Part shown: positions 37,465 through 40,619 of the stretch, piece after piece
Layout: each line of letters starts with the position of its first letter
Numbering within the stretch: the stretch's first letter is position 1
Assembly: GCF_014836675.1 (NCBI RefSeq)
Contig: NZ_JACSQK010000004.1
Location: 1-64,000, forward strand
Direction: 5' to 3'
Source: Comamonas avium
GTDB taxonomy: Bacteria > Pseudomonadota > Gammaproteobacteria > Burkholderiales > Burkholderiaceae_C
Length of the DNA: 64,000 nucleotides
The notes under the pieces: model-generated
Databases searched by the model: none
Told to the model about the DNA's origin: nothing
The model's input: only the letters and a program-made list of their open reading frames with translations
Program-made: the position numbers and the translations under genes

Positions 37465-38385
37465 TCAGACAGTGACTGATCGCGCCGCCATCGCCTTGCC
37501 CACCTCAAGCTGGCCCTGCGCTGACCCGCTTTGGGGCACCTTTTCATTGGAGCGGTCCAGCACTGCACCCAGCTGCTCGGCCAGTTGTTCTGCCGCGTCA
37601 GCACCGGTGCCCACATACACGCCTTGCGTCAGTGTGATATGCGCCGCTTCAAACCCACCGGCACCCGCACACAAGATGGTACGGGTGGGCGCTGAAGCAT
37701 GGGCCAGCACCAGCATGGCTGGCACCACTGCTGCAGGCTTGAGCGCTGCCAGCACGGCTTCAGGCATCAAGCCTTCGGTCATGCGCGTGGCCGCCGTGGG
37801 AGCCAGAGCGTTCACATGGATGTTGTGCTTGGCGCCTTCAATCGACAAGGTTTGCATCAGGCCCACCTGCGCCATCTTGGCCGCGCCGTAATTGCTTTGC
37901 CCAAAATTGCCATACAGGCCAGACGACGAGGTGGTCATCACAATACGGCCATAGTTTTGTGCCTGCATGTGAGGCCACACCGCTTTGCAGCAATTGGCAG
38001 CCCCCATGAGGTGCACTTCCACCACCAGGCGAAAGTCGTCCATCTCCATCTTGGCAAAACTCTTGTCGCGCAAGATGCCCGCGTTGTTCACCAAAATATC
38101 GATACGTCCCCATGCATCCATGGCCTGCTGCACCATGGCCTGCACCCCCGCAAAGTCGGTGACCGATGCACCGTTGGCGATGGCCTCGCCGCCCAGCGCC
38201 TTGATTTCGTTGACAACCGCTTGCGCCGCTGAAACGGACCCACCCAGCCCGTCCAGACTGCCCCCCAGATCATTGACCAGTACCTTGGCCCCGCGTTGCG
38301 CCAATGCCAGTGCGTGCTCACGCCCCAAGCCACCGCCTGCCCCCGTCACAATCGCAACCTGCCCCTCAAACGTCAATGCCTGCAT
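37465..38385 (-). CDS. Short-chain dehydrogenase (3-hydroxyacyl-CoA dehydrogenase-like)
   Basis: A 306-residue SDR-family oxidoreductase. The NAD(P)-binding motif is VTGAGGGLGREHALALA, a NNAG motif is LVNNAGILRDKSF, and the catalytic Ser-Tyr-Lys set is TSSSGLYGNFGQSNYGAAK. The sequence GRDHA-like start and the VNDLGG segment resemble the dehydrogenase part of peroxisomal multifunctional enzyme type 2, so a (3R)-hydroxyacyl-CoA substrate is likely. The start at 38385 (MQALTFEGQVAIV) follows AGGAGAG. The 600 bp AT-rich region with DnaA-box-like sites lies directly upstream. Confidence 0.88.
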   Translation of the reverse strand: MQALTFEGQVAIVTGAGGGLGREHALALAQRGAKVLVNDLGGSLDGLGGSVSAAQAVVNEIKALGGEAIANGASVTDFAGVQAMVQQAMDAWGRIDILVNNAGILRDKSFAKMEMDDFRLVVEVHLMGAANCCKAVWPHMQAQNYGRIVMTTSSSGLYGNFGQSNYGAAKMAQVGLMQTLSIEGAKHNIHVNALAPTAATRMTEGLMPEAVLAALKPAAVVPAMLVLAHASAPTRTILCAGAGGFEAAHITLTQGVYVGTGADAAEQLAEQLGAVLDRSNEKVPQSGSAQGQLEVGKAMAARSVTV

Positions 38386-38646
38386 GGATATCTCTCCTCT
38401 TCGCTGTGATTCATTACGTGATAGCCAGCCACTGTAAGCATGCTCGTTCATCCCCCATTTCACCCAAGTGACTCAACGACCAACGGCTTATCCACGGATA
38501 AACGGCACAAGCATGTGGACAAGCCAAGAAGGCTTGTCGACAACTGCGCTAAGCCCTTGTTTTACAAAAGCCTCCACCAACTGCCTGTTTTTTAATCACT
38601 CACCCAGGTCACACATGTACTTTCACCCGAAAATCCTGAACAATCC

Positions 38647-38655
38647 TGTGGATAA
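38647..38655 (-). promoter_or_regulatory. DnaA box (perfect consensus)
   Basis: TGTGGATAA on the plus strand is an exact TTATCCACA box in reverse. It lies 26 bp left of the most AT-rich stretch. Confidence 0.6.
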
Positions 38656-38819
38656 CCAATCTCAAAGCACAACACAACACACTTAACTCATTGTTTTAAA
38701 TCAAAATAAATCACACTGAGTAAAAAATAGACAGTGGATACCTTCCATAAAAAACGTCATTTATCCAAGTTGGTGCATCTTCTAAACCGCCAGTTGCCCC
38801 CAAATTGACTGAACAACTA

Positions 38820-38828
38820 TGTGGATAA
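38820..38828 (-). promoter_or_regulatory. DnaA box (perfect consensus)
   Basis: A second exact TTATCCACA box in reverse orientation, 173 bp from the first and right of the AT-rich stretch. Confidence 0.6.
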
Positions 38829-38987
38829 GCCCGGACAAAACCCGCCACCCCCGCACAAGTGCTTGATCTACAAAGCACACAAGTGCGCTGCTTATTTTTT
38901 AAGCACATTCACTTAACTGCCACAGGCAGCTTGCGCAGCGACAATTGGCGGTTGACCATTCAGCCATCCCACCCTCGGGATAACCCC

Positions 38988-39284
38988 ATGAACCACCCTC
39001 TTACCCCTGAACTTTTTACCGCCAAGCTCGAACCCAGCGGACAGCAGTGCGATGCCTGGGCAGACCAGACCTTGCTGGACTCCATGGAAATGGGCGGCCT
39101 GAACTGGCCCAGCTCATGCCGCAATGGCACTTGCAGAACCTGCCTGGGAACACTCACAACCGGCAGCGTGCATTACAAAATAGAGTGGCCCGGGCTGACG
39201 GCGCAAGAAAAAGCCGAGGGCTGTGTACTGCCTTGCGTGGCCTACCCCAACGGGGATGTCTGCCTGCAAGACCCCGAGAACTAG
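38988..39284 (+). CDS. 2Fe-2S ferredoxin
   Basis: A 98-residue plant-type ferredoxin domain that carries electrons through one [2Fe-2S] cluster. The cluster loop is SSCRNGTCRTCLG (C-x4-C-x2-C), and the fourth ligand is the Cys in GCVLPCVAYP. The start at 38988 (MNHPLTPELFTAKL) gives a typical small ferredoxin; the upstream open frame enters the origin-like region. No redox partner gene is adjacent, so its electron acceptor is unknown. The next gene, ribBA, is 213 bp away. Confidence 0.85.
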   Translation: MNHPLTPELFTAKLEPSGQQCDAWADQTLLDSMEMGGLNWPSSCRNGTCRTCLGTLTTGSVHYKIEWPGLTAQEKAEGCVLPCVAYPNGDVCLQDPEN

Positions 39285-39497
39285 AGCCCAGTCGCGCCCC
39301 TTGCATGCCAAGAGCGCTACAAAGCACTAAAATACCGACTTTCGACAGGACCGCGCACCATCCGGCGCCGGCCTACCAGCGGCGAAGACCGCGCGCAATG
39401 TTCTTTGGAAAGCATGCCCCCATAGGCATGCTGGGCGGGTGCCCACACAAAGGCGTGCTGCCGGCAACCCGACAGGTCATCCAAGGAACAAGACTCC

Positions 39498-40619
39498 ATG
39501 AACTCACCACTCATCCCCGTGCAGATTTCGCCGGTGGAAGACATCGTTGCAGACATGCGCGCTGGTCGCATGGTCATTTTGGTTGATGAAGAGGACCGTG
39601 AAAACGAAGGCGATCTGGTCCTGGCCTCTGACCACGTCACACCTGAAGCCATCAATTTCATGGCCAAATTTGGCCGTGGCCTGATCTGCCTGACGCTGAC
39701 CCGCGAACGCTGCGAATACCTGAAACTGCCTCCCATGGCCGCCCGCAATGGCACGGTGTACAGCACAGCGTTCACCGTTTCCATTGAGGCCGCTGAAGGC
39801 GTGACTACGGGCATTTCTGCCGCTGACCGCGCACGCACCGTGCAGGCCGCCGTGGCCCAGAACGCCCAGCCCACAGACCTGGTGCAGCCTGGCCATATTT
39901 TCCCGCTGCAAGCCGTAGACGGTGGCGTGCTGATGCGCGCCGGGCACACCGAAGCCGGCTGCGACCTGGCCGCCATGGCCGGCTGCTCCCCCTCCTCCGT
40001 GATCTGTGAAGTCATGAAGGACGATGGCACCATGGCCCGCCTGCCTGATCTGCAGCTGTTTGCTGCAGAGCACGGACTGAAGATCGGCACCATTGCTGAT
40101 CTGATCCAGTACCGCAGCCGCACCGAGTCGCTGCTGCAAAAGGTCGGCACGCGTCAGATGCACACCAACTGGGGCGAGTTCACTGCCCACCTTTTCCAGG
40201 ACAAGCCCAGTCAGTCTGTGCACATGGCCCTGGTCAAAGGCAGCTGGAGCCAGACCGATGAAGTGGCCGTGCGCGTGCATGAACCGCTGTCAGTGCTGGA
40301 TGCGCTGGAAGTCAACCGATCCATGCACTCATGGGGTCTGGACACCAGCCTTCAATACCTGAATGCCCAAGGACAAGGCGTTGCCGTGCTGCTCAACTGT
40401 GGCGAAAGCGCCGGGCAATTGCTGGCGCAATTTGAAGGCAGCGCCCGCTCTGCCCAGGCACCCGAGCGTGGCCGCATGGACCTGCGCTCCTACGGCATTG
40501 GCGCACAGATTCTGCGTGAATGCGGTGTTCACAAAATGAAACTGCTGGGCCAGCCCCGCCGCATGCCCAGCATGGCCGGCTATGGACTGGAAATTACTGG
40601 CTACATCACCAAGGAATAA
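39498..40619 (+). CDS. ribBA: 3,4-Dihydroxy-2-butanone 4-phosphate synthase with degenerate GTP cyclohydrolase II domain
   Basis: A 373-residue riboflavin-pathway protein. The N-terminal RibB domain (residues 1-200) has the catalytic [10 protein letters not shown] at 30-39 and [15 protein letters not shown], and makes dihydroxybutanone phosphate from ribulose 5-phosphate. The C-terminal half (about 207-373) keeps the RibA fold outline ([21 protein letters not shown]) but lacks the three zinc cysteines and the catalytic segment of GTP cyclohydrolase II, so that activity is probably absent. The gene leads ribH by 5 bp. I saw no FMN riboswitch in the 213 bp upstream. Confidence 0.92.

Follow-up and report, generated by a model that had tools for sequence, protein, structure and literature searches.

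In the literature consulted, the sites away from the origin that switch DnaA have been characterized in E. coli and its close kin. There the DARS sites stimulate the release of ADP from DnaA, and datA, with IHF, promotes the hydrolysis of the ATP bound to DnaA. At both DARS1 and DARS2 of strain K-12, the core consists of three DnaA boxes, the first head-to-head with the second, with 14 bp between box I and box II and 12 bp between box II and box III. Passages in two papers (PMC10380432, PMC5742627) describe a requirement for IHF sites at DARS2 and an IHF-bent DnaA complex at both datA and DARS2. At datA, according to an excerpt of PMC4585315, an IHF site lies between DnaA boxes of the same orientation, and the spacing between box and IHF site matters. 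The distribution of the DARS2 core is given in two ways, as specific to the gamma-proteobacteria in a passage of PMC4245941 and as shared by the beta or gamma groups in one of PMC5742627. Among the matches listed, the wider datA/DARS literature in the open-licence part of PMC deals mostly with E. coli and includes no title that names the Comamonadaceae.

Here we describe a conserved array, designated locus A, in the genome of Comamonas avium. Judged by its sequence, locus A is fairly likely to be a chromosomal DnaA-control array that works in the manner of datA and DARS but is built differently. A description of such an array was not found in the open-licence PMC literature on Comamonas, Acidovorax or the Comamonadaceae together with DnaA boxes, oriC or IHF. 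The array is conserved, modular and defined by sequence in a large environmental family, and would help to test the generality of off-origin control. Its repeat number, which ranges from one to seven modules, offers a natural dose series.

Organization of the SDR-Fer2 intergenic region

The window analyzed here is a stretch of 64,000 nucleotides from the start of contig C14, one of 19 contigs that make up the 3.93 Mb host genome. Locus A lies in a gene-free region of 602 bp (38386..38987) between a short-chain dehydrogenase gene (SDR, PF00106; 37465..38385, minus strand) and a gene for a small 2Fe-2S ferredoxin (Fer2, PF00111; 38988..39284, plus strand). On the left MCP, gshA and SDR all run on the minus strand, and on the right Fer2, ribBA, ribH and a gene that we take from its translation to be nusB all run on the plus strand. 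A preliminary description of this DNA had drawn attention to an intergenic region with divergent flanks, and near the site this is borne out, with the SDR side minus and the Fer2 side plus. The same description had counted two exact and two one-mismatch DnaA boxes, all four of which are present at that strength, and an 11-bp inverted repeat, which we locate at 38485-38495 (GGCTTATCCAC) and 38821-38831 (GTGGATAAGCC); several direct repeats are present as well. Its figure of 22% GC between the exact boxes holds for a 50-bp stretch starting at 38679 and not for the whole gap, which is 36% GC; within the region, the lowest value over 100 bp is 29% GC.

The cluster of DnaA boxes is genuine and greatly exceeds chance expectation. 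In 200 first-order Markov copies of the window, four boxes with no more than one mismatch, including two exact ones, never fell within 602 bp, and 20,000 Markov copies of the 602-bp region itself gave no cluster of the same strength. Exact boxes are scarce throughout the genome, with 19 in 3.93 Mb against 9 for a reversed control pattern.

Locus A is made up of three tandem copies of a module of about 90 bp, spaced by 133 and 173 bp. A 35-bp direct repeat, D1, is present in three copies at the same spacing; it and the IHF-like sites of the locus, both absent from the preliminary description, are what the region is built of. The plan of the module is a TTATCCC-like half-site, a facing DnaA box 26 bp on, and a near-match to the IHF consensus 36-37 bp after the start of the box. 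All three modules are on the plus strand, at 38484..38570, 38619..38708 and 38790..38877. In a whole-genome search with R1, a model of the module built from sequence only, they gave E-values of 3.8e-14, 4.6e-11 and 6.4e-13, respectively, which are not independent of the modules themselves, since R1 was built partly from them.

Among the window's three modules, the half-site is clear only in module 1, where it is a one-mismatch DnaA box (TTATCCACG; 38488..38496, plus strand); its counterparts in modules 2 and 3, TTTCACCCG and TTGCCCCCA, are poor matches. The facing boxes are all on the minus strand, with one mismatch in module 1 (TTGTCCACA; 38514..38522) and the exact sequence TTATCCACA in modules 2 (38647..38655) and 3 (38820..38828). 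The IHF-like sites, also on the minus strand, each depart by one mismatch from WATCAANNNNTTR: AAACAAGGGCTTA at 38550..38562, AAACAATGAGTTA at 38684..38696 and GATCAAGCACTTG at 38856..38868. Their register is +36 in modules 1 and 3 and +37, one base later, in the middle module. A second direct repeat, D2, is an A/T-centred element that follows module 1 (CTGCCTGTTTTTTAATCAC; 38581..38599, unstranded) and module 3 (CTGCTTATTTTTTAAGCAC; 38888..38906, unstranded).

Conservation within the genus

The genus is understood here in the sense of GTDB. Locus A DNA was matched in 20 of the 24 same-genus relatives searched, in addition to the host genome, and in none of 16 genomes from other families. The spacer between SDR and Fer2 could be excised in 11 relatives, and every one of these spacers holds at least one box with at most one mismatch. 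The spacers fail to align end to end, and MAFFT, applied directly to the 650-bp upstream regions, gave no usable alignment, since the modules had slid against each other. The remedy was to cut the modules out by their box and align them afterwards. Treated in this way, 41 modules from the window and from the loci of 19 of the 20 relatives line up when anchored on the box, and their MAFFT alignment needed a single one-base column, filled in 4 of the 41. One relative (G006) shows no box within the 620 bp examined, and R1 found three units further upstream in its genome.

The conserved unit consists of the TTATCCC half-site, the flank CTGNACAAGC before the opposite-strand box, and CAAGNCATTGATTT 36 bp after the start of the box. 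Conservation of the box among the 41 modules is partly imposed, because they were picked with a TGTGNANAA-type expression; that expression covered the box alone. Read on the other strand, CAAGNCATTGATTT is the IHF consensus WATCAANNNNTTR, as stated in a passage of PMC10380432. At +36 exactly, 28 of the 41 modules carry this consensus with no more than one mismatch, 17 of them without any, where shuffles give 0.025. When the gap was left free in a search downstream of 42 first halves, all 19 IHF matches fell at 36 or 37. Within the host genome R1 finds four copies, three in the window and one on contig C15, and its next match has an E-value of 0.2.

Distribution across the Comamonadaceae and beyond

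Across the family, 86 of 150 genomes match the model at E<=0.01, 33 of them below 1e-6, and 64 have no match. The scan of the order found matches at E<=0.001 in 17 of 150 genomes, 3 from the same genus and 14 from other families (best 1.8e-7). Both scans scored 27 candidates per genome under strict filters, so that absences in them carry little weight. Among 16 closed or near-closed genomes from other genera, a further 7 lack a match at E<=0.001; together with the 64 family genomes they indicate that the module is not indispensable.

Scanning 84,980 species genomes with a pattern returned 107 stretches. The pattern was in two parts, and imposes the bases of the box and of the IHF site as well as a gap of 26-30 between them. 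Nearly all the titles are from the Comamonadaceae, including Comamonas, Acidovorax, Paracidovorax, Delftia, Diaphorobacter, Giesbergeria, Hydrogenophaga, Curvibacter, Extensimonas and relatives. The model also matches 106 of the 107 stretches (79 of a first 80 and all of the remaining 27); the pattern-selected stretch from a Bacteroidales MAG (L092) gave no model match.

Several individual stretches deserve mention. A 3.2-kb contig titled Persephonella (MAG) is 30% GC, packed with exact DnaA boxes, and matches the model at L183:2,190-2,490. It is probably not the same array, and may possibly be an origin, of Persephonella or of another organism. The module is also carried by a stretch titled Pantoea sp. 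18069 (L178) and by one titled Gammaproteobacteria MAG (L112); the latter title looks wrong because the stretch has the gene order of the Comamonadaceae. The largest array among the stretches searched, of seven tandem modules, is at the Fer2 locus of Paracidovorax wautersii (L160:4,577-5,663).

An alignment for the family was made from the best 150 of the 177 units in the first 80 stretches, and draws on 75 of these. The facing box fits TTNTNCACA in 149 of the 150 aligned modules and is exactly TTATCCACA in 86, and the IHF consensus is perfect in 119; both counts are partly imposed by the pattern. In most cases the left half-site reads TTATCCC, a form without the CACA end of a DnaA box, which tells against the DnaA-control reading. 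Neighbouring units keep preferred distances, the 75 pairs being spaced by 133-135 bp in 35 cases, by 172-174 bp in 18 and by 124-128 bp in 8. The first two classes, to which both of the window's spacings belong (133 and 173), thus account for 53 of the 75.

Genomic location and orientation

The window's own locus accounts for 55 of 79 stretches, 50 with Fer2 and 5 with only the left neighbours in the stretch examined. The other 24 lack both Fer2 and the orthologous SDR in the stretch examined, 5 of them still lying near gshA or ylqF. The direction of the module relative to GC skew is kept in 51 of the 55 and in 14 of the 24 other contexts.

Each of 11 closed or near-closed genomes of the same genus has two module loci, the weakest best match among them having an E-value of 1.6e-5 (G008). 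The second locus of the host genome, locus B, is the sole other strong copy of the module there (C15:425,717-425,804) and lies between lrgB and a umuC-like gene. Second loci were fetched from the host and ten other genomes, leaving out that of G017, and an lrgB-type gene is common to 8 of these 11, which shows in part that locus B is the same place in all genomes.

These contexts bear on whether the array is a DnaA- and IHF-regulated promoter region of Fer2, of the divergent SDR or of both, tying the gene to the cell cycle. The DnaA-controlled promoter pair put forward in the preliminary description survives in this form as a weaker rival, which we consider unlikely. Its strength is that the module lies upstream of Fer2 and points in the same direction in all 50 loci with Fer2, including two Hydrogenophaga stretches in which the other neighbours have changed. 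A fixed position before one gene thus holds in the Fer2 loci but fails overall, given the 24 other contexts, and the locus B unit precedes lrgB in the host genome but follows it in the other seven loci that have lrgB (two of which also have a unit before it). A promoter/terminator scan came back empty, with no sigma-70-like promoter in 38300-39050, a weak negative.

The position of the loci along the chromosome was determined in 12 chromosomes, ten from single-contig genomes and two (G018 and G058) from genomes with a second contig; the draft host genome is not among them. The origin was taken from box clusters, with two exceptions: for G018 the skew minimum within its first 60 kb served, and for G044 the origin was assumed to lie near coordinate 1. 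Checked against four skew samples each, these assumed origins gave all four expected signs in 8 of the 12 chromosomes. In 11 of the 12, locus A is located 0.59-0.73 of the distance from origin to terminus, and in one at 0.89; locus B is at 0.49-0.67 of the half-chromosome in six. In six same-genus chromosomes all 12 loci, A and B in each, are oriented toward the origin, even when A and B are on opposite arms. This is support rather than proof, because symmetric inversions would keep both distance and direction, and the conservation of position may follow gene order only. Extra arrays tell against a general rule, as does the mixed direction relative to skew in the other contexts. Two genomes of genus g35 have them at 0.12, 0.35, 0.89 and 0.99, three of the four pointing the other way, and G112 has one at 0.92.

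A putative role in the control of DnaA

If locus A is a DnaA-control array, DnaA would bind to the boxes of the array, and IHF would bend the DNA at each IHF site, joining the DnaA molecules on neighbouring boxes. The resulting DnaA-IHF complex would alter the amount or the nucleotide state of the DnaA that is available to oriC. The host genome encodes the proteins IhfA, IhfB and Hda, along with a DnaA that carries DHTTVLHAVR, the canonical motif for DNA binding. From these features of the sequence, the array is probably one of the places that control how often the chromosome is copied. As to the direction of the effect, we lean weakly to a DARS-like reactivation ahead of a datA-like inactivation, with plain titration third, because of the facing sites and the late position on the replication arm.

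Passive titration of DnaA, with the IHF sites incidental, overlaps the part of this mechanism that concerns the amount of DnaA. Titration on the E. coli chromosome is argued for in a passage of PMC12371093, and with exact boxes so rare in the host genome, two close together make a notable sink. The preliminary description came close to the DnaA-control reading when it listed a titration site; the boxes it relied on are there, and the IHF component and the modular repeat had gone unseen. A passive sink would nonetheless need neither the fixed distance between box and IHF site, nor the facing half-site, nor the preferred spacing of modules, yet all three are conserved, and we regard titration alone as distinctly unlikely.

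The array might also serve an unknown DNA-binding protein, for instance in the organization or segregation of the chromosome, with a box that resembles a DnaA box by chance. Neither DnaA nor IHF explains why the TTATCCC half-site and the flank CTGNACAAGC are conserved. The box, though, varies mainly at positions 3 and 5, in agreement with TTWTNCACA except for G at position 3, and an IHF consensus stands at a fixed distance from it, which makes this reading quite improbable.

A structured RNA or a mobile repeat is extremely improbable, even though the half-sites form an inverted repeat whose column pair (10, 36) ranks 1 of 51 in mutual information and the copies stand in tandem. The RNA element was dropped because the most variable pair of the repeat (columns 8, 38) shows no covariation (rank 34 of 51) and the single Rfam match in 38300-39600 is far below its cut-off; the mobile element was dropped because plasmid, phage and viral-contig sequences gave no match to the module, which moreover has orthologous position and orientation and few copies per genome.

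Locus A and the replication origin

Clusters of DnaA boxes flanked by divergent genes can mislead origin calls. Locus A has such a cluster in a gene-free region, with a short A/T-rich stretch and divergent genes, and the preliminary description offered it as the true oriC in an unusual place or as a secondary origin. That it is either, whether oriC or a back-up, is scarcely plausible: skew is negative on both sides of locus A with no switch, the skew minimum and a larger box cluster lie near C12:~212 kb, and in the 12 chromosomes placed the locus is 0.59-0.89 of the way to the terminus. The skew without a switch and this late position in other chromosomes rule out locus A as the true oriC, and a secondary origin finds no support in these data.

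The cumulative skew of C12:140-240 kb reaches its minimum at 211,642, and eight DnaA boxes with at most one mismatch follow just past it, at C12:211,733-212,328. Samples of 20 kb along C12 are negative in skew in 6 of 6 cases before 200 kb and positive in 5 of 5 after 220 kb. Flanked by a PQQ-dehydrogenase gene and an LTXXQ-family gene, the boxes occupy DNA that is A/T-rich and free of genes. With a switch in skew at C12:~211.6 kb and eight boxes beside it, oriC is likely to be at C12:~212 kb (211,400-212,700), 38 kb from dnaA (C12:173,587) and on a contig other than that of locus A. As a refutation of its reading, the preliminary description had named a skew minimum elsewhere, next to dnaA, together with boxes that relatives do not conserve. 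This is borne out only by half: the minimum does lie elsewhere, it is not next to dnaA, and the boxes are conserved in relatives. This likely oriC resembles locus A in grouping its DnaA boxes in A/T-rich DNA free of genes, and differs from it in its eight boxes, in sitting at the skew minimum and in not matching the module model.

Some related observations were made along the way. In G018, 53 kb separate dnaA from the skew minimum found within the first 60 kb, and the largest box cluster is ~185 kb from dnaA in G017 and ~270 kb in G013. The host genome has a further cluster 7 kb from oriC, where 250 bp hold six boxes, each with no more than one mismatch (C12:204,817-205,065); its flanks, going by their translations, are presumably UppP-like and DinG-like helicase genes.

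Comparison with DARS, datA and a third locus

Like DARS1 and DARS2, locus A is an intergenic cluster of DnaA boxes away from the origin. The DARS sites have two boxes head-to-head; in locus A the partner of the box would be the facing half-site, which is in register, comes close to a box in module 1, is weak in the other two modules and is mostly TTATCCC across the family. The array differs from DARS in the 26 bp that separate its facing sites, in a left site that usually has no CACA, and in the tandem repetition of the unit. A scan for the DARS core (spacings 14, 12) that recovers DARS1 and DARS2 from K-12 finds no core in the window, and over the window, loci B and C (described below) and C12:160-220 kb (six stretches) it gave one poor match, at C12:204,817 (2, 0 and 3 mismatches). 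Conversely, R1 matches K-12 DARS1 weakly over two facing boxes (12.8 bits, E 0.03) and has no match in K-12 DARS2 or datA. Taking E. coli K-12 oriC to be at 3.92 Mb, DARS1 (0.81 Mb) lies at ~0.66 of its arm, to be compared with 0.59-0.73 for locus A.

The likeness to datA is one of mechanism, in that IHF would drive contact between DnaA molecules at locus A as it does at datA. As at datA, IHF-like sites lie between boxes of the same orientation; the minus-strand boxes start at 38514, 38647 and 38820, and the one-mismatch IHF-like sites at 38550 and 38684. From box to IHF site to box, the start distances are 65 and 97 bp for boxes 2 and 3 of datA, and 36 and 97 bp, then 37 and 136 bp, in the window. 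In contrast, datA is a single unit near oriC, at ~0.2 of the arm with oriC placed as above, and locus A is far from it, at 0.59-0.73 in 11 of 12 chromosomes and 0.89 in the last.

A different locus with DnaA boxes and IHF-like sites was seen in the host genome at C12:~487.46 kb. This locus C has an exact box in the context TGTGGATAACTTTGT together with IHF-consensus-like sites, and its flanking genes, named from their translations, are presumably hemE and priA. It was surveyed in the 11 other genomes whose exact boxes had been compiled, by box pattern alone. Two such boxes in the same direction, 311-338 bp apart, are found in seven of these (G002, G043, G044, G058, G112, G160 and G186), at 0.14-0.27 of the arm, with the sequence of one G002 copy diverging past the box. 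In G013 and G017 the pair of boxes is of another kind and faces inward, and G004 and G022 have no such pair. Some copies have a second box-like site that starts 12 bp on.

It is a tentative proposal, falling just short of probable, that the Comamonadaceae have a class of DnaA-control sites of their own, in which the tandem box/IHF modules of loci A and B, together with locus C, would do the work that DARS and datA do in E. coli. Under this proposal the fixed-spacing module would stand at one to few loci, with A and B far out on the arms. Locus C, for its part, would parallel E. coli datA in its position on the arm, with E. coli oriC placed as above.
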